Shown here in pieces: positions 13,351 to 62,060 of a DNA stretch of 64,000 nt (the stretch's first letter is position 1; every line of letters begins with the position of its first letter). The stretch is from Armatimonadota bacterium (GTDB lineage: Bacteria; Armatimonadota; Fimbriimonadia; Fimbriimonadales; Fimbriimonadaceae): NCBI GenBank assembly GCA_025360125.1, contig JANYCU010000013.1:62001-126000 (forward strand), in the 5' to 3' direction. Both the position numbers and the translations under genes were made by a program. The notes beneath the pieces are model-generated. The model did no database searches. It was given only the letters and a program-made list of their open reading frames with translations, and was not told the origin of the DNA.

Positions 13351-13384
13351 GCAAAAAAGGCTCGGACACGTTAGTGTCCGAGCC
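13351..13384 (-). terminator. Rho-independent terminator of the Nup-PTPS operon
   Basis: Perfect 11-bp stem, GGCTCGGACAC at 13359-13369 and GTGTCCGAGCC at 13374-13384, with a 4-base loop. On the - strand it is followed by six T. It ends transcription from the five-gene operon that closes at 13545. Confidence 0.9.
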
Positions 13385-13544
13385 TGTTATCTAGGTGGGT
13401 TTGGTCTGGGCGACTATATGTGTCGCGCCACATTTGCGGCGGACATTTCCTCGTCACCTCTTTGCGTTGGTCTACCCAATTCACGGCAGCACTCATTTCC
13501 TTAATTGATTTGACGATGGAATTTAGGAATTCGACGCGCAAGAA

Positions 13545-14366
13545 TTACGAGATTTTACAAACTTCGAAAAGGCTCCGTGACGTTTCGTGCAATCGGATTC
13601 GTTCTAGGGTAGCTGGAACGGTGTTGACCAGGCGTTGAAAGATGGTTTGGGCGATCATCTCGGACGTCGTCGCCTTTCCATCAAATTCAGGCAGATCACA
13701 GTTGAAGTTCTTGTGATCGTACCGATCGACAACTTCGCGATTAACGGCTTCATCGACAGCGTTGATCGAGCAAATCATCCCGGTGGCTTCGTCTAACTTT
13801 CCGCTTACCGTGACTTCCAGAAGGTAGTTGTGGCCATGACCAGCTGGGTTATTACACTTGCCAAAGAGTTCAAGATTGCGCTCATCGGAGAGTGATGGCA
13901 CGTGAAGTCGATGCGCTGCGGCAAATTCGTAGGTGCGAGTGATGGTTGTTTTCATTCCGTCGTATTCTCCGTAAAAGCTGGGAAATTCTTCTAATTTGAT
14001 TTGGGTCAGGGTGACTTCAGAGGGCAATGTCGCCTCGTTGATTTCATCCCAAAGATAAGTTAAGAGGTTCTCGATCGATGGCGTTCGTTTTTCGAAATGG
14101 GGGATTTCGTCGTTGATGCTTTTTTGCGCAAATTGCGGCATTAGGCGGCTTTTGAGGACGGCATCGACATCTTTGATGTTGACGATCATTCCGGTGTCAG
14201 GGCTCACTTCACCCGCTACGGTTACATCGAGGACGTAGTTGTGGCCGTGGTTGTATTTTGAGCCCCAATTATCGAAAAGCTGGCGATTCTCGGCCTCACT
14301 CAAATGGTCAAACCAAAACCGATGGCCACTGCTAAACATTATTTTCCGGGTCATCGATACGCGCAT
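13545..14366 (-). CDS. Tandem 6-pyruvoyl-tetrahydropterin synthase/QueD-fold protein
   Basis: A single 273-residue chain with two PTPS-fold domains, residues 1-137 and 138-273. Such enzymes rearrange dihydroneopterin triphosphate, as in queuosine (QueD) or pterin synthesis, using a zinc held by three His. Domain 2 looks active: zinc ligands His152, His177 and His179 (GHGHNY), catalytic Cys171 (GKCNN), Asp217-His218 (YDHKNFN) and Glu261. Domain 1 keeps His15, His40 and His42 and a Glu near 126, but has no Cys where GKC should be (WGSKYNHGH) and reads QFAQKSIN in place of the Asp-His pair. It is the last gene of an operon with a nucleoside-type ABC importer, overlapping it by one base (TAATG). 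Confidence 0.88.
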   Translation of the reverse strand: MRVSMTRKIMFSSGHRFWFDHLSEAENRQLFDNWGSKYNHGHNYVLDVTVAGEVSPDTGMIVNIKDVDAVLKSRLMPQFAQKSINDEIPHFEKRTPSIENLLTYLWDEINEATLPSEVTLTQIKLEEFPSFYGEYDGMKTTITRTYEFAAAHRLHVPSLSDERNLELFGKCNNPAGHGHNYLLEVTVSGKLDEATGMICSINAVDEAVNREVVDRYDHKNFNCDLPEFDGKATTSEMIAQTIFQRLVNTVPATLERIRLHETSRSLFEVCKIS

Positions 14367-15229
14367 TATTGATTCTCTTTAAGTGGGAGGCCCAACGATT
14401 GTGGAGCTCTTGTTCCCTTTCCTACGACGATTAGGATGATAAGCGTAGCAACGTAAGGCAGAGCTAAGATGAGAGCTCGTGGAACTTGGCTTCCACTCAT
14501 TTGGAGTTCGAATTGTAGCACGTCAAAGAGGCCCAACATCAAGGCCGAGAGCAAAATTCCGATTGGTCGCCACCGGGCAAAGTTTACAAGTGCGATCGCG
14601 ATGAAGCCTCGACCTGCGACCATTCCGGCGGTAAACGACTGGTTGATTCCGATGGCCAGATAGGCTCCTCCGAGTCCGCCCATTATTCCGCCGATGATTA
14701 GGGCTTGGTATCGGAGTTTGGCGGGATTAAATCCGGCGGCCACGGTTGCATCGGGATATTCGCCCGTTGCCCTCAGTTTGAGTCCAAAGGGAGTTCGGTA
14801 CAGGAGGTATCCAATGTTGATTGCGCTGAGGATGAGGATACAGAGAATGATATCGACCGAGCCAAAAAGGTTTGGCAAGGCGGGCAAGTTTATTGATCGA
14901 CCAGTGGAGGTTTGTTTTTCGAAAAGGGTTCCACATGCCCCAAGGGCAAGGAGGTTGATGGCGGTTCCGACCACAATTTGGTCGAGGCCGAACTTGATGG
15001 TGAGCAGGCCCAGGAAGAGAGCGATGATGACGCCGATCCCGATTCCGGCGAGGAGTCCGAGCCAGAGGTTTCCGGTTGAAGAGGCGACCATCGTGGCGGA
15101 AAATGCGGAGCCGAGCATGAGGCCCTCGAGTCCAACATTGATGATTCCGGAGCGTTGGACAACGGATTCGCCGATTGCGCCGAAAGCGACGGGAGCAGAG
15201 AATTTGATGATTTGGATGATCGAGATCAT
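14366..15229 (-). CDS. Nup/BMP-type ABC importer permease, second subunit
   Basis: A 287-residue inner-membrane protein with about eight or nine hydrophobic helices, of the branched-chain permease superfamily branch used by nucleoside and simple-sugar importers (NupQ/YufQ-like). The segment RSGIINVGLEGLMLGSAFSA is diagnostic for this branch, and GFIAIALVNFARWRPIG is a typical later loop. It overlaps the upstream permease by four bases and the PTPS gene by one, so all are translated together. With the other permease it forms the membrane channel. Confidence 0.92.
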   Translation of the reverse strand: MISIIQIIKFSAPVAFGAIGESVVQRSGIINVGLEGLMLGSAFSATMVASSTGNLWLGLLAGIGIGVIIALFLGLLTIKFGLDQIVVGTAINLLALGACGTLFEKQTSTGRSINLPALPNLFGSVDIILCILILSAINIGYLLYRTPFGLKLRATGEYPDATVAAGFNPAKLRYQALIIGGIMGGLGGAYLAIGINQSFTAGMVAGRGFIAIALVNFARWRPIGILLSALMLGLFDVLQFELQMSGSQVPRALILALPYVATLIILIVVGKGTRAPQSLGLPLKENQ

Positions 15230-16242
15230 TCAACACCTCTGGCAGCGAGGCGTTTGTCGTTGATTGATCGAAACAAAAGGAGACCCAGGACGGTGGCGGC
15301 CTGGATGACGTAGACGAAATAGCTACCGATTCCACCAAAGCGCGACAGGTTACTGGTGGCGGCGAAAAGGCCGCCGAAAAGCACTGAGGATGGAATGACG
15401 GCAAAAGGATTTAGGGCCCCGACGAGGGCGACGGGGATTCCTAAGAACCCGTCCTGGTGGGAAAATGATCCGGTGATTTGCCCATTGATGCCCAGATACT
15501 GGATTCCTCCTGCGAGACCGCATACAGCGCCGCTGAGGATCATTGCTCGGAATTTGACTTGATTGGCATCGAGGCGATTGGAACGAGCGAACCGTGCGTT
15601 GGCTCCGACGATTCGGGAAAAATATCCGCTTCTGGTGCGAAACATCCAAATGCCGACCCCAATTGCCACAAGTAGCGCAATAAGGATTCCAAGGTGAAGA
15701 TCACTTTGCCGTGAGAATTTCGGCAGCATGAGGTCGTCCGGTAATTGATCGGTGATTGGACTGGTTTGGCCAGCTTTTCGGAGCGGGCCCCCGACGAAAA
15801 AGAGTAAGAGATTATCGGCAATGAAGTTGAGGAGGATTGTGCCGATGACGAGGTCAACACCCCGCTTTAAATAGAGCACACCCGCCAATCCTGACCACAG
15901 AGCACCACCAGCGGCAGCCCCTAACATCATCAGGAGACACCCAGCGAGCCCTAGATGCGTGTTGAGGATGACCTTACCGATTGTCGCGGCCAGAATAGCT
16001 CCCGCGAGAAGTTGACCTTCGCCACCGATGTTGAACGCTCCCGCTCGCCATGCGACGGTGATCCCGGTAGCGGTTAGGAGAACTGGCGTTGCTCGGACGA
16101 GGGATTGAGAGATCGCTACCTTATCGCCGAAGGCACCTTCGAAAAGGAGTTTTGATCCCTCGCCCAATGGGATTCCAAAAATGATGAAGCTTGCCGCGAT
16201 GACCACGAGGAGAAATAGTGCGGTCACAGCGAATTGTTTCAA
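15226..16242 (-). CDS. Nup/BMP-type ABC importer permease, first subunit
   Basis: A 338-residue inner-membrane permease of the NupP/YufP type. It has an N-terminal helix, the family segment AWRAGAFNIGGEGQLLAGAI, and the loop DGFLGIPVALVGALNPFAVI. It overlaps the ATPase gene upstream and the second permease downstream by four bases each. Its length is usual for the family, where this subunit is the larger of the two. Confidence 0.92.
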   Translation of the reverse strand: MKQFAVTALFLLVVIAASFIIFGIPLGEGSKLLFEGAFGDKVAISQSLVRATPVLLTATGITVAWRAGAFNIGGEGQLLAGAILAATIGKVILNTHLGLAGCLLMMLGAAAGGALWSGLAGVLYLKRGVDLVIGTILLNFIADNLLLFFVGGPLRKAGQTSPITDQLPDDLMLPKFSRQSDLHLGILIALLVAIGVGIWMFRTRSGYFSRIVGANARFARSNRLDANQVKFRAMILSGAVCGLAGGIQYLGINGQITGSFSHQDGFLGIPVALVGALNPFAVIPSSVLFGGLFAATSNLSRFGGIGSYFVYVIQAATVLGLLLFRSINDKRLAARGVE

Positions 16243-17648
16243 CTCGCGAGGGCCTCCTTTTCATCGGCAAAAAGTTTTCCCCTCGACAGGAACCACTTCT
16301 GGCTGCTTACTGCATAGAGTTCCTCTCGGTCAGTCGTTACTAGAATTACATAGGCTCCGTTTTGGGCAGATTCCAGCAATTTTTGATGGACAAACTGGGC
16401 AGCTTTCACATCGAGTCCCCGTGTGGGGTTTACGACGATTAAGATTTTGGGACTTTGATCAAGTACTCGGGCAAGGATTACCTTCTGCTGGTTTCCTCCG
16501 GAGAGCTGCTTGGCAAGGTCACGTTCAGATTTGGCCTTTATCGAGTACTTTTCGATGAGAGTTTTGGCGACTTTCTGGATTTCGGCTGGGCGGAATGTGA
16601 CACCGTTTATTTGGCCCGATATAGCTATGTTTTCTACCAAATTGAGGTCAACGGCGAGGCCATCGACCTGACGGTCTTGGGGGACGTATCCCACGTAGGT
16701 TTGATCGAAATTGAGTTCCTTGCCATCAACGGAGATCGTCCCTCGCTGGAACTGGCGCACTCCCGAGAGAGCTTCGGCCAGTTCAACTTGTCCATTGCCA
16801 TCGACTCCGCCGATTCCGACAATTTCACCCTGAATGATTTTGAGATTGACGCCCTGAACGGCGTTTTGACTTCGATCGTCCCGCACCCAAAGGTCTTTGA
16901 CCTCAAGTGTAGTTTGGGCTTGCTCAGATGCTTGGTGGGGCGAAAACTCAGGAATTGCGCCCCCGACCATCATATTGACCAGTTGATCGACAGTTGCTTC
17001 CGATCTTAGCAAGGTGCCGATGTAGTTGCCTTGGCGGAGAACCGTGATTCGGTCTGAAGCGGCAAGAACCTCTTCAATTTTGTGAGCGATTAGGATGACG
17101 ATTTTGCCTGCTTTGGCAAGCTGGCGCAGGAATTGGATGAGCTCGGCGACTTCGTCTTTGGCGAGGACGGCAGTTGGCTCGTCAAAGATAACAACCTGGG
17201 GATTCGTCGCCACGCACTTGAGAATTTCGACGCGCTGTTGGGTTCCAACAGAGACGTCTTGCACTCGCGAGTTCCAGGGGATTTCCCATCCAAATTGGGC
17301 GGCTTTGGCCTTTATTTCTTCGAGTCCGTGCTTGCGGACGCCAAGCTGACTCAGCGTCAGATTTTCTTCGATTGTGAATGCGGGAACAAGCTTGAAATGT
17401 TGGTGGATCATTTCGATACCCAGGCTTCGGGCTCGCTGGGGGTCTCCGGATGGGAGGTTCTTTCCGTCGAGGGTAATGGTTCCAGTTGTTGGCGACAAGA
17501 AACCCCCAAGTATGTTCATCAGGGTGGACTTCCCCGCGCCGTTCTCGCCGACAACGGCGTGAACTTCGCCAGGAGGGAAATCGACCGATAGCTTTTTGAG
17601 CGCCTCAAGGGACCCAAATTTCTTTGAGACGCTGGTTACGCTTAACAT
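16239..17648 (-). CDS. Nup/BMP-type ABC importer ATPase with two nucleotide-binding domains
   Basis: A 469-residue ATP-binding protein of the NupO/YufO type that powers the two permeases from the cytoplasmic face. Domain 1 has Walker A GENGAGKST (residues 34-42), Walker B VVIFDEPTAVL and the signature VGTQQRVEILK. Domain 2 has the degenerate Walker A GGVDGNGQVEL, signature LSGGNQQKV and Walker B-like ILIVVNPTRGLD, which are usual for this family. It follows the binding-lipoprotein gene by six bases and overlaps the first permease by four. At 469 residues it is slightly shorter than most members. Confidence 0.93.
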   Translation of the reverse strand: MLSVTSVSKKFGSLEALKKLSVDFPPGEVHAVVGENGAGKSTLMNILGGFLSPTTGTITLDGKNLPSGDPQRARSLGIEMIHQHFKLVPAFTIEENLTLSQLGVRKHGLEEIKAKAAQFGWEIPWNSRVQDVSVGTQQRVEILKCVATNPQVVIFDEPTAVLAKDEVAELIQFLRQLAKAGKIVILIAHKIEEVLAASDRITVLRQGNYIGTLLRSEATVDQLVNMMVGGAIPEFSPHQASEQAQTTLEVKDLWVRDDRSQNAVQGVNLKIIQGEIVGIGGVDGNGQVELAEALSGVRQFQRGTISVDGKELNFDQTYVGYVPQDRQVDGLAVDLNLVENIAISGQINGVTFRPAEIQKVAKTLIEKYSIKAKSERDLAKQLSGGNQQKVILARVLDQSPKILIVVNPTRGLDVKAAQFVHQKLLESAQNGAYVILVTTDREELYAVSSQKWFLSRGKLFADEKEALAS

Positions 17649-17654
17649 TCGAAC

Positions 17655-18674
17655 TTAGAACTTATCTTTTGGAACGACGAGTTTGCCACTCAGAATATCG
17701 TTCTTGACCACTTCGACCGCAGCAACCGCACCAGCAGGAAGATTGGCTCTCAGCTTCTCGTTAAAGACAAAGTCGATGGCTCCTTTTGCCATATCTAGTT
17801 GAATAACTCCTCCGTCGAATTTGCCCTCTTTGACTAGTTTCGCAACTTCGAGAAAGGCTGGTTTGGCAACGAGGGTTGCCGAACCAATTACGACGCCACT
17901 TTCGTTATCGTTCTGGTTGAGGTTCGCGCCAAGGGCCCACACTTTGCCCTCTTTGCAGGCATTGAATACGCCCTGTGCTCCGTTATTGGCTTGATGGATC
18001 AGCACATCGGCTTTCTTTTGGATCATTTGCTCGGCAGCTTGCTTGGCTTTGGCAACATCATCGTTGGAGCCAGTAAAGACTTCGAGGACTTGTATTTTCG
18101 GATTTGTCGCCATTGCTCCGGCGCGGAACGCTTTGAATGTTGATTTGATAGAGGGAACGTCTGGTCCGCCTACCATTCCGACGACTCCGGTCTTGGATGT
18201 CTTTGCGGCCAGGACTCCGGCGAGGTAGAACGACTGCTCTAGGTAGAACCGAATGGCTCCGGCGTTCCTTGAGGTTAATGATCCTGATGATGAGACGAAA
18301 ACGGTACCGGGGAAATCCTTGGCGACCTGCACACCGGGTTCGTTATATTCGTAACCGTGGCCAAAAACCAGTTTGAAACCCTTTTGGGCATACGATCTCA
18401 TTGCTTCTTTGATGTCGTTTCCGCTGGCAACTGAATTGGCGACTTCGACATCCATGTCTTTATGAATGCCTTGAAGGCCGTCGTAAGCTAGGGCGCACCA
18501 GCCGGAGTCGCTGATCGGACCTGGCGTGATTAGGGCGACCTTGAAGTCGCTCTTCGGAGCCGGATTGCCTGTTGCGGTGTTGGTCGTCGTTGCTTCGTTA
18601 TTGGCGGTTGGCGATCCGTTACAGCCCACCAAGAGCAATGCCGAAAGACTCAGAAGACCGAGTAACTTATTCAT
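17655..18674 (-). CDS. BMP-family substrate-binding lipoprotein
   Basis: A 339-residue lipoprotein with signal peptide and lipobox LVGC (Cys18), followed by an Asn/Thr-rich linker and a periplasmic-binding-protein core (ALITPGPISDSGWCALAYDG, FGHGYEYNEPGVQVAKDFPG). The BMP family (Med, PnrA, NupN) binds purine or other nucleosides. It is the first gene of the operon Bmp-ATPase-permease-permease-PTPS. Because the last gene makes pterin or deazapurine intermediates, the ligand could be a purine nucleoside, a pterin or a queuosine-type compound; this is inference. No riboswitch motif that I know is visible in the leader. Confidence 0.92.
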   Translation of the reverse strand: MNKLLGLLSLSALLLVGCNGSPTANNEATTTNTATGNPAPKSDFKVALITPGPISDSGWCALAYDGLQGIHKDMDVEVANSVASGNDIKEAMRSYAQKGFKLVFGHGYEYNEPGVQVAKDFPGTVFVSSSGSLTSRNAGAIRFYLEQSFYLAGVLAAKTSKTGVVGMVGGPDVPSIKSTFKAFRAGAMATNPKIQVLEVFTGSNDDVAKAKQAAEQMIQKKADVLIHQANNGAQGVFNACKEGKVWALGANLNQNDNESGVVIGSATLVAKPAFLEVAKLVKEGKFDGGVIQLDMAKGAIDFVFNEKLRANLPAGAVAAVEVVKNDILSGKLVVPKDKF

Positions 18675-18837
18675 GATCCAATTCTACAGCTTTTGGGGAA
18701 ATGATGTTAGCAAGGTTTGGGAGATTAGGGTTGGTGGTGAGTAAGTTCGGGCAAGGATTTATGGTCACCGCGATCCATGAATTTCGGTGGGAGGTCCGAA
18801 TTTGCATACTCGGATCATGTTGGCCAATGCTTACTCG

Positions 18838-18920
18838 ACCTCCCCCCTCCGTCACGCTCGTCATAAAAACAATCCAGATTTAGGAATGACTCGCGCGCCA
18901 CCTCCCCTCAGCTGAGGAGC
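18838..18920 (+). repeat. Palindromic dispersed repeat, family B, copy B2
   Basis: CTCCCCCCTCCGTCACG, then TTTAGGAATGA near 18880-18890 and CACCTCCCCTCAGCTGAGGAG at the end, in the same order as in copy B1. CTCAGCTGAG is a perfect palindrome. It lies in the gap between the operon start and the clpB end. The rest of 18675-18982 holds only the operon leader and no recognisable gene. Confidence 0.45.
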
Positions 18921-18982
18921 TTGGCTCTTTTCTCAACTATTAACTCGCTTGTACAATTCACTCATCGCTTTGATCTCAATTC

Positions 18983-21583
18983 TTAACCGACTTTGTCTTT
19001 GGCGATGAATGTGAATCGACCGTCGGAATAGTCCACATCGACTTTTTGGTTTTCCCTTAGTTCGCCTTTGAGGACGAGTTGGGAAAGCGGATTGATCAGT
19101 TCGTTTTGGATGGCGCGCTTGAGGGGCCTTGCGCCATATACCGGGTCAAATCCTTTGCTGGCTAAATTGCTCATCGCTTCATCGGTGATTTCCAGATCGA
19201 TTCGCTTATCTGCGAGGCGCTTTCGGAGATCTTCGAGCTGGATTCCAACGATTCCTTTGATTTGGTTTATGCCGAGCGATCGGAAGACTATGAGTTCGTC
19301 CAGGCGGTTCACGAATTCTGGTCGGAAGTGCATCTTCACCTCTTCAAGAACTCTTTGCTTTGTATCCTCAAAGTCAGTATCGCTGACGGGGTCGCCGTAG
19401 TAATGCGAGCCAAGGTTGCTGGTCATGATGATAACCGTATTTTTGAAGTCGACCGTCCTTCCCTGTCCGTCGGTGAGTCGCCCGTCATCGAGCACTTGGA
19501 GGAGGACGTTGAATACTTCGGGGTGGGCTTTTTCGACTTCGTCGAGGAGGATGACCGAATACGGTCGTCGTCGAACGGCTTCGGTGAGCTGTCCGCCCTC
19601 GTCGTAACCGACGTATCCCGGAGGGGCTCCAATGAGGCGGGAAACAGAATGCTTCTCGCCATACTCGCTCATGTCGATTCTCAGCAGAGCCTTTTCGTCG
19701 TTGAACATGAGCTCGGCGAGGGCCTTGGCGGTTTCGGTTTTGCCGACACCAGTTGGGCCGAGGAACATGAAGGATCCGATTGGTCGATTAGGGTCGGAGA
19801 GGCCACTTCGGCTTCGACGAACCGCATCCGAAATCGCAATTAGCGCTTCATGCTGACCAACGACTCGCTTTTCTAGCTGCTCTTCGAGGGTGAGGAGTTT
19901 GGCCATTTCACCTTGGAGCAGTCGGCTGACCGGGACGCCCGTCCACTTGCCTACGATTTCAGCGATGTCTTCGCTGTCGACTTCTTCTTTGAGCATTTTG
20001 CCGCCCTCTTGAACCTGGGCAAGAGCTTCGGAAGCCTCCGTGATCCGTTGATTTACTTTGGGAATTAGTCCATATTTGAGCTCGCTTGCTTGAGCATGTT
20101 CGTCGTTATTCGTTGCCGTTTCGAGTTCATGTTTTAGCCTTTCAAGTTCCGATTTTGCTTCTCGGACGATTTCGATCTGGCTTTTTTCCTTTTCCCAGAC
20201 GGCTCGGAGTCCGGTCGCGGTTTCGCTGAGCTCGGCGATGCGCTTTTCGGCAGTAGCGAGGCGTTCTTTTGATGCGGCGTCGGTTTCCTTTTTCAAGGCT
20301 TCGCGGTCGATCTGATGTTGGGTTATTTGGCGCTCGACTTCGTCGATCTCGGCGGGGACTGAGTCGATTTCGATTTTCAGTTTCGATGCGGCTTCGTCGA
20401 TAAGGTCGATGGCTTTGTCGGGCAGGAATCTGGCGGTGATGTAGCGGTTGGAAAGAGTTGCGGCGGCCACCAGGGCTGAATCCGTGATTCGCACGCCATG
20501 ATGGACTTCGTACTTCTCTTTAAGTCCGCGGAGAATTGAGATGGTTTCTTCGACGCTTGGTTCATCGACTAAGACCATTTGGAACCTTCGCTCGAGGGCT
20601 TTGTCTTTTTCGATGTACTGGCGGTATTCGTTGAGGGTTGTTGCGCCAACGCAGCGAAGCTCACCTCGGGCGAGCATTGGCTTGAGCATTTGGGCGGCGT
20701 CCATGCTTCCTTCGGCCTTTCCGGCACCGATGAGGGTGTGCATTTCATCGATGAACAGGATGATTCTTCCGTCGGATTTTTTGATGTCGTCGAGGAGGGC
20801 TTTGAGTCGTTCTTCGAATTCGCCGCGAAATTTTGAACCTGCAACCATGGCTCCAAGGTCGAGGCTGATGACGGATTTGTCCTGGAGAGACGTTGGAACG
20901 TCGCCTGCGATGATTCGCTGGGCGAGGCCCTCGACGACGGCGGTTTTGCCGACGCCGGGTTCGCCGATGAGCACTGGATTGTTCTTTGTTCGTCGGCTGA
21001 GGACGTGGATTACTCGTCGGATTTCTTCGTCACGTCCGATAACGGGGTCTAGTTTGCCGTTTCTGGCCTTTGCGGTGAGGTCAATTCCGTATTTTTCGAG
21101 TGCTTGGTAGGTGTCTTCTGCCCCTGGGTCGGTGACTCGTTTGCCGCCGCGGACATCTTCGATGGCGGCGAGTAGGTCGGCTTTGGTCGCTCCTTTTGCG
21201 CGGAGGGTTTTTCCAAGCCAGCCGTTCTCTTCGGAGAGGGCGATGAGAAAGTGTTCAGTGCTGATGTAGTCGTCTTTGAGTTTTTCAGCCTCAGTGAATG
21301 CGTTTTGGAAGATCGTCTGAAGTCGGGGCGAGATTGTGGCACCATAGGCGGCGGCACCGGATACTTTCGCTTGCTGGCCGACGTTGTCTTCTACTTCTTT
21401 GGTCAGGGTCGGGACGTCGATACTGAGTTTTTGGAGAAGGGGTTTGGTAAGGCCGCCGTCTTGCCACAGAAGGGCGAGCATCAGGTGTTCGGCATCGATG
21501 GTTTGGTGCTGCATTTTCTCGGCCACGGCTTGGGCGGATTGGAATGCGTCTTGGGCTTTTAGCGTTAATTTGTCAAATCTCAT
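18983..21583 (-). CDS. clpB: ATP-dependent chaperone ClpB
   Basis: A hexameric cytoplasmic disaggregase that, with DnaK, pulls proteins out of aggregates. The 866-residue protein has the full layout: N-terminal Clp repeat domain (1-145), first AAA+ domain with Walker [14 protein letters not shown] and Walker [10 protein letters not shown], a long coiled-coil M domain (about 410-525), and the second AAA+ domain with Walker [15 protein letters not shown] and Walker [15 protein letters not shown]. Length and motifs are normal. Its ATG at 21583 lies 25 bases after a small membrane-protein gene. I see no certain CIRCE or heat-shock promoter upstream. Confidence 0.97.
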
Positions 21584-28481: not shown

Positions 28482-28599
28482 ACCCGGCAACACGCCTTTC
28501 TCGCGGCACCCTGCGGTGCAACTACCTCAGCCGAGGCGAAGCTTAACTGCTGTGTTCGGAATGGGAACAGGTGTGTCCTTCGCTCTATGGCCACCGGGA
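28482..28599 (-). rRNA. rrf: 5S ribosomal RNA
   Basis: About 118 bases with the 5S hallmarks on the - strand: the closing stem CCCGG at the 5' end with CCGGG at the 3' end, and CCCATTCCGAACACAG in the first arm (loop C). It follows the 23S gene by about 75 bases. Ends are estimated from the terminal stem. Confidence 0.93.
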
Positions 28600-28624
28600 A
28601 ATCTCATAGGGATTTAACCCTTTG

Positions 28625-28655
28625 AGAGCCACACATTGTAGAGAAGCGCAATCGA
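28625..28655 (-). other. 3' arm of the pre-23S processing stem
   Basis: GTAGAGAAGCGCAATCGA and its flanks pair with 31660-31688 (TCGATGCGCTTCTCTAC) over nearly 28 bases with few mismatches. This is the classic stalk that RNase III cuts to release 23S rRNA. It lies just outside the mature 3' end. Confidence 0.75.
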
Positions 28656-28675
28656 ATAACTTTGTAAGAGCTGAA

Positions 28676-31640
<2,965 letters not shown>

Positions 31641-61607: not shown

Positions 61608-62060
61608 CTAGATTACCGCCGAAGGGGGCTCGGATGGTTCCTGGTTAGCAGATTGATTTCCCTGAGATTTTGGAAGCAAGACTTCGAACCGCATGACTAA
61701 CAATGGCGTGAAGAAGAATGCGTAGATTGCAGGAATGGTGATCAGCCCCATCGTGACTCGAAGGTCCTCTTGCAGAGCCGAAAGGACGATAACGAACACT
61801 TCGGCAATGGCAAATGCGAGTCCGAAGAAGGCGAGGATTCGAAATGGGGTCGCCCGGGAAAATTGGCGGAATTCTTTGTTGAAAAGCACGATATAGAAGA
61901 TGAGAAGACTCATGCCCCAACCAATAAGTCGTGGAACCAAATCCACCTTAGGTGAATCGACAACTAGGGCAGCCCAATCAAGATAGCCGAGAAATATCAA
62001 AGGCGTATAGAGCCAGACACGGAAGAGAAACAGGGGAATACCATGCAACGGTTTTTTCAT
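61608..62060 (-). CDS. Small membrane protein of unknown function
   Basis: A 150-residue protein with four hydrophobic segments (about 12-30, 43-63, 74-95 and 104-124) and a Ser/Pro/Glu-rich polar tail. No family is recognised. It is 22 bases upstream of the S9 peptidase gene on the same strand and is likely co-transcribed with it. Confidence 0.65.
   Translation of the reverse strand: MKKPLHGIPLFLFRVWLYTPLIFLGYLDWAALVVDSPKVDLVPRLIGWGMSLLIFYIVLFNKEFRQFSRATPFRILAFFGLAFAIAEVFVIVLSALQEDLRVTMGLITIPAIYAFFFTPLLVMRFEVLLPKSQGNQSANQEPSEPPSAVI

Follow-up and report, generated by a model that had tools for sequence, protein, structure and literature searches.

The 64,000-nucleotide stretch analysed here, hereafter the window (positions 62,001 to 126,000 of contig JANYCU010000013.1 from an Armatimonadota bacterium of the Fimbriimonadaceae), carries an operon at positions 13545 to 18674 of its minus strand. 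The operon joins the genes of a BMP-family ATP-binding cassette (ABC) importer to the gene for a protein with two 6-pyruvoyl-tetrahydropterin synthase (PTPS) domains in tandem. This importer–PTPS pairing is old and conserved, recurring in several families of the Armatimonadota. The favoured reading, which is given a probability of roughly 45%, is that the operon belongs to a biopterin pathway and that its importer recaptures or scavenges pterins. The operon would then be one local version of a pterin cluster found across the Armatimonadota and composed of the importer, the tandem PTPS and then the GTP cyclohydrolase FolE and/or a short-chain reductase (SDR). In the source genome, the operon consists of the importer and PTPS genes only, with neither FolE nor SDR. 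The source genome, which was examined by profile searches and in chosen stretches, is a 4.13-Mb draft with 98.6% completeness. Judged by PTPS, the named organism closest to it is an uncultured Fimbriimonas (73% identity), which puts the genome in the Fimbriimonas group of the phylum; a cultured relative is Fimbriimonas ginsengisoli (PMC4072686).

Operon structure and conservation of the importer–PTPS linkage

All five reading frames are open and co-directional. The first gene encodes the substrate-binding lipoprotein (17655–18674; Bmp PF02608, 9e-48) and is followed by those for the double-domain ATPase of the importer (16239–17648; two ABC_tran domains in Pfam), permease A (15226–16242; BPD_transp_2, TTG start), permease B (14366–15229; BPD_transp_2) and the tandem PTPS protein (13545–14366; COG0720, PF01242 twice). 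The spacings from BMP to PTPS are +6, -4, -4 and -1, the negative values being overlaps of 4 bases between the ATPase and permease A genes, 4 bases between the two permease genes and 1 base between the permease B and PTPS genes. An intrinsic terminator on the same strand (13358–13385), which follows the PTPS stop at a distance of 160 nt, has a 12-bp stem, AGGCTCGGACAC-TAAC-GTGTCCGAGCCT, followed by TTTTT. The surrounding 66-nt stretch folds at -29.7 kcal/mol, whereas shuffled versions average -11.9 (z = -6.7). The five-gene unit, its spacings and its strong terminator therefore stand exactly as given in the initial annotation. A promoter search of the operon gave nothing exceeding shuffles. 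A riboswitch in the operon leader was rejected because an Rfam scan returned no family at gathering score in the window and none at E up to 1 in 18600–18990.

Conservation was surveyed by searches of 113 genomes of the order to which the source genome belongs. Tandem PTPS was found in 102 of them and clear BMP orthologues in about 80. BMP and PTPS lie on the same strand about 3.3 kb apart (3.2–3.8 kb) in 60 of the 67 genomes that have both on one contig, and this spacing is filled by the three transporter genes; such conservation goes far beyond what chance would give. At 73 of 91 PTPS loci the gene immediately upstream is that for permease B, and the gene directly downstream encodes an SDR at 36 and FolE at 7 of these loci. 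The complete BMP–ATPase–permease–permease–PTPS–FolE–SDR series is present in three genomes of family f2 (G001, G003 and G007), and a fourth f2 genome (G004) has the same importer–PTPS–FolE–SDR series with BMP on a separate contig. The importer was seen without PTPS in three main cases (G013, G057 and G075). Because their contigs stop within or near the transporter genes, these cases provide no argument against a dependence of the importer on PTPS.

Profiles built from the BMP orthologues and from PTPS were run on 291 armatimonad genomes and matched 121 and 140 of them, respectively. Among genomes from outside the order, the BMP subfamily and tandem PTPS occur together in 31, the importer alone in 10, PTPS alone in 8 and neither in 129 (Fisher p about 9e-19, relatedness ignored). 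Four other families (f6, f13, f26 and f31) show the importer–PTPS gene order too, at approximately 40% protein identity and with FolE or SDR next in several. Importer–PTPS–FolE is found in G155, G157, G166 and G167, importer–PTPS–SDR in G217, importer–PTPS in G208 and, with inserted genes, in G115 of f6. The arrangement is thus not restricted to a single genome, which the initial annotation had named as a refuting outcome. In G115 (L235, 3820–6356), the insertion consists of two genes between the importer ATPase and permease genes, one of which was identified by eye as restriction-modification methyltransferase-like.

An unlikely explanation of this linkage is that the importer takes up a substrate with no functional tie to pterins, such as a vitamin or a sugar, and that the neighbourhood is conserved without a metabolic link. 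In family f1, the surrounding HNH, MurA and MreB genes are likewise conserved, so that synteny alone is weak there. PTPS persists without a neighbouring importer in the near-complete genomes G036, G060 and G071 and in genomes of family f3, and the nearest curated names are NCBIfam 'putative B6 transporter' models, matched far below the cut-off. However, the link holds despite different flanking genes in f2, f6, f13, f26 and f31 and is thus no by-product of general synteny. Moreover, the reading frames overlap, and across the phylum genomes tend to have either both genes or neither.

The tandem PTPS protein and its probable pathway

The PTPS protein is encoded by the only PTPS (COG0720) gene in the source genome and consists of an N-terminal domain (aa 1–138) and a C-terminal domain (aa 139–273), with 40 of 134 aligned residues identical between them; its predicted model has a pLDDT of 96.5. 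Three signatures separate the members of this family: CxxxxxHGH marks biopterin-type PTPS-II, CxxxHGH marks QueD (PTPS-I) and ExxHGH marks the folate form, PTPS-III (PMC5041015). The C-terminal domain carries the PTPS-II signature as CNNPAGHGH, together with YDHKN and HET, and the QueD and PTPS-III signatures are absent from both domains. D217 and E261 of the C-terminal domain are invariant in 46 homologues and H218 is conserved in at least 90% of them; we take D217 and H218 to be the catalytic Asp-His pair and E261 to be the pterin-anchoring Glu of PTPS. In the N-terminal domain, the HGH histidines are retained, with Trp in place of Cys (WGSKYNHGH) and AQK in place of DHK. Because Cys and Asp-His are replaced, this domain is probably non-catalytic and structural. 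Tandem PTPS proteins of Bacilli retain the catalytic Cys in both domains, indicating that the armatimonad branch, along with some others, has lost it. Structurally, human PTPS comes nearest to the C-terminal domain, at Z 18.5 and an rmsd of 1.4 across 135 residues. Since such similarity alone is not diagnostic, a counter-example being known (PMC5041015), motif and context were used for the assignment. Together with the gene neighbours of PTPS and with FolE2 and phenylalanine hydroxylase in the genome, these features make a place of the protein in tetrahydrobiopterin-type synthesis, with a substrate from inside the cell, the most likely one.

The distribution of partner enzymes supports the pterin link drawn in the initial annotation, with PTPS in a GTP-derived pterin pathway. 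Beyond the phylum, the orders FolE–tandem PTPS–SDR in Bacilli, PTPS–FolE in Calditrichia and PTPS–SDR–phenylalanine hydroxylase in Chloroflexi were found. FolE was not found in family f1, including the source genome, which encodes FolE2 (G000 C26) unlinked to the operon. The GTP cyclohydrolase is thus swapped between families, most f2 genomes having FolE within the operon and f1 an unlinked FolE2. Phenylalanine hydroxylase is present in 98 of the 113 genomes of the order compared with 1 of 14 control genomes, and is intact in the source genome. Its gene lies beside PTPS in G111 of family f4, and beside PTPS or its SDR on a Chloroflexi contig. In the source genome (C22; L217:3765–5958) it is located 4 bases upstream of a gene for a 2-oxoacid dehydrogenase E2 acyltransferase, which suggests a role in amino-acid breakdown. 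The SDR next to PTPS in relatives was assigned by context, and no curated model names it. Among the genomes of the order, 17 are without a full QueC, of which 14 keep tandem PTPS and 14 phenylalanine hydroxylase. Taken together, these patterns suggest that the pathway mainly yields a cofactor of the tetrahydrobiopterin type.

In the proposed pathway, FolE2 would convert GTP to dihydroneopterin triphosphate, and the C-terminal PTPS domain, with the N-terminal domain as a non-catalytic partner, would convert this to 6-pyruvoyl-tetrahydropterin. A reductase would then produce a tetrahydrobiopterin-like cofactor for use by the phenylalanine hydroxylase of the genome.

The least likely of the readings, and a highly improbable one, is that the tandem PTPS acts mainly as QueD in queuosine synthesis while the importer salvages a 7-deazapurine such as queuine, preQ1 or preQ0. 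QueE and QueC are encoded next to each other in the source genome (C42; L108:6901–8580), and the QueD model TIGR03367 passes its cut-off when both PTPS domains are summed. However, the C-terminal domain has CxxxxxHGH rather than the QueD motif, the tandem PTPS and phenylalanine hydroxylase are mostly retained in the genomes without a full QueC, and the neighbours of PTPS are FolE, SDR or phenylalanine hydroxylase, QueE and QueC not having been seen adjacent to it. As the sole PTPS of a genome with QueE and QueC, this protein must also supply QueE unless an unknown enzyme does so; it apparently serves as QueD as well. How one biopterin-type PTPS also supplies the queuosine pathway is a question raised by this arrangement.

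A folate bypass by PTPS was rejected. Its motif is missing, and the FolB and FolK profiles have no match in the source genome, making a folate role unlikely. FolK is also absent from the relatives G019, G022, G024, G026, G031 and G032 and present in other members of the genus; with FolB absent from the source genome as well, folate synthesis has apparently been lost in the subclade of the source genome. A correlation of the cluster with missing queuosine or folate genes, which the initial annotation had put forward as a check, did not emerge. QueC is near-universal in the cluster-bearing families, and FolK, although lacking in the source genome and its close relatives, is present in most other cluster-bearing genomes; the importer therefore does not track their loss.

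The binding protein and the candidate ligands of the importer

The BMP lipoprotein has the lipobox LVGC with Cys18, which is invariant in 47 orthologues, and its predicted model has the BMP-family fold (Z 35.5 to Lbp and 34.2 to PnrA). Structure was discarded as a guide to the ligand, as all BMP structures match at Z 29–35 and the fold does not discriminate among them; a riboflavin binder with this fold, RfuA (4iil), also exists. Nucleoside-binding BMPs hold their ligand by two stacking Phe residues (Phe27 and Phe176 of BmpA) and by Asp98, Asp225 and Lys242 (PMC13325309). The corresponding residues in the window protein are W59 and N204, and S130, N251 and L268, respectively, as equated by sequence alignment with Lbp directly and with PnrA and BmpA via a paralogue from the source genome. 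Trp59, Ser130 and Asn251 are present in 52 of 52 orthologues. The position of Lys242 is occupied by Ile in 50 of the 52 and by Leu268 in the window, and almost every orthologue has Asn, Gly, Glu or Asp at position 204. Thus, the two-aromatic base stack is reduced to its first member, Trp59, and the three ribose contacts are lost. In most other armatimonad families, position 204 is Trp or Phe, which without the ribose contacts gives an aromatic sandwich suited to a planar base-like ligand.

Given these replacements, the label of a Nup-type nucleoside importer in the initial annotation is not supported. The paralogue mentioned above, a second BMP lipoprotein in the source genome (C19; L216:1755–2792), is closest to guanosine-bound Lbp (1e-69) and has a near-canonical pocket of Phe, Asp, Trp, Asp and Lys, so that a nucleoside-type receptor is encoded elsewhere in the genome. 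Vitamin B6 as the ligand finds no support, because the curated models are matched far below cut-off and the nucleoside-type paralogue matches the same model. The solved structure closest by profile is a guanine binder, AtzT, and guanine and pterin have a 2-amino-4-oxopyrimidine ring in common. The best guess from genomic context and from the loss of pocket residues is that the ligand would be a pterin or a guanine-like compound.

In the favoured reading of a biopterin-pathway operon, the importer would recapture a pathway pterin (biopterin, dihydrobiopterin or an oxidised pterin) that escapes from the cell or is given off by neighbours, thereby sparing GTP. A narrower proposal, advanced still more tentatively, is that this ABC transporter of the BMP family serves specifically to import unconjugated pterins of the biopterin type, co-encoded and co-inherited with the biopterin pathway across the Armatimonadota. 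The initial annotation had the importer deliver a precursor on which PTPS acts. This direction of supply is not upheld, because the PTPS substrate, dihydroneopterin triphosphate, is made in the cell from GTP, the cyclohydrolase is encoded in the genome as FolE2 or in the operon of relatives as FolE, and PTPS outlives the adjacent transporter in some genomes. Of the functional link proposed between importer and PTPS, the long-conserved linkage is supported, and a nucleoside importer feeding PTPS is not.

A competing and rather unlikely reading keeps the same biopterin operon and has the importer take up a guanine-like purine base or a nucleoside that refills the GTP pool. Consistently, the guanine binder AtzT is the solved structure that the profile matches best (3e-48), followed by guanosine-bound Lbp and adenine-bound 3s99, and two f13 genomes (G158 and G160) join the importer to FolE without PTPS. 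AtzT binds guanine at 110 nM (PMC6834077). However, a nucleoside is unlikely, because everywhere in the order Ser, Asn and Leu/Ile stand where Asp, Asp and Lys would contact the ribose. The genome also encodes the paralogue with its near-canonical nucleoside pocket, and bulk purine uptake needs no tie to a single minor branch.

Several observations weigh against pterin recapture by a biopterin-pathway operon. A shared neighbourhood is linkage and no proof of function. In families f10 and f11, the importer and PTPS are both present and mostly non-adjacent, PTPS usually lying beside FolE or a FolE2-like protein and the importer elsewhere. PTPS is present and phenylalanine hydroxylase absent in G018, G083 and G084. 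No cluster-type SDR was found in the source genome, where the best match scores 150 bits over a partial profile compared with 310 and 255 in relatives. The profile scores of AtzT and Lbp are nearly tied, and the guanine contacts of AtzT are partly kept: N230 corresponds to Asn220, but S175 stands for Glu165 and N204 for Trp194.

If the pterin importer is real, it would be the first ABC transporter assigned to pterins, as far as found, and bacteria would compete for, or recycle, an expensive redox cofactor. The cluster yields a concrete and testable list of ligands, and, according to the survey, phenylalanine hydroxylase and a pathway of the biopterin type are spread over an order whose phylum has been little studied.

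Further features and comparison with known systems

Elsewhere in the window, the 23S and 5S rRNA genes lie together at 28482–31637. No 16S gene was found anywhere in the 64-kb window, and the 16S rRNA gene is apparently unlinked from the 23S and 5S genes.

The operon is made of known parts in a combination for which no description was found. To our knowledge, no bacterial ABC importer for pterins has been described; none was found in the open-licence literature, nor was any paper there that combines a BMP family ABC transporter with pterin. Literature matches to 'biopterin transporter' apparently concern mainly eukaryotes such as Leishmania.

The importer shares with the PnrA/TmpC, BmpA/BmpD and Lbp systems a lipoprotein anchor, a double ATPase, a pair of permeases and the fold (Z 34–35 with Lbp, BmpD and PnrA). 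However, the second of the stacking Phe residues and the Asp, Asp and Lys that bind ribose in those systems are replaced here by Asn, Ser, Asn and Leu/Ile. Compared with AtzT and 3s99, the binding protein is closest by profile to AtzT, which by alignment also has no equivalents of Asp98 and Lys242, and one base-contacting Asn is kept. In contrast, where AtzT has Glu165, Ser97 and Trp194, the window protein has Ser, Gly and Asn.

The pathway resembles bacterial tetrahydrobiopterin synthesis by FolE, PTPS-II and sepiapterin reductase, in that FolE or FolE2, a CxxxxxHGH PTPS, an SDR and phenylalanine hydroxylase occur in the same genomes, the first three often in one operon. It differs in the tandem PTPS with its degenerate first domain, in the ABC importer within the operon and in having no adjacent SDR in the source genome. 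The FolE–PTPS–SDR operons of Bacillus and Paenibacillus have a tandem PTPS approximately 40% identical to that of the window and the same partner enzymes. In contrast to the armatimonad operon, they have the catalytic Cys in both domains, signalling-like genes next and no importer seen adjacent. Such operons with a two-Cys tandem PTPS were identified by eye in the Bacilli loci L057, L059, L061, L064 and L066 and also in L063 and L065. By the same inspection, phosphatase- and STAS-like genes follow within a few kb in L057, L061 and L064, and a sensor-like protein of about 845 aa is encoded directly after PTPS in L063 and L065. These loci may represent a pterin-linked signalling cassette.

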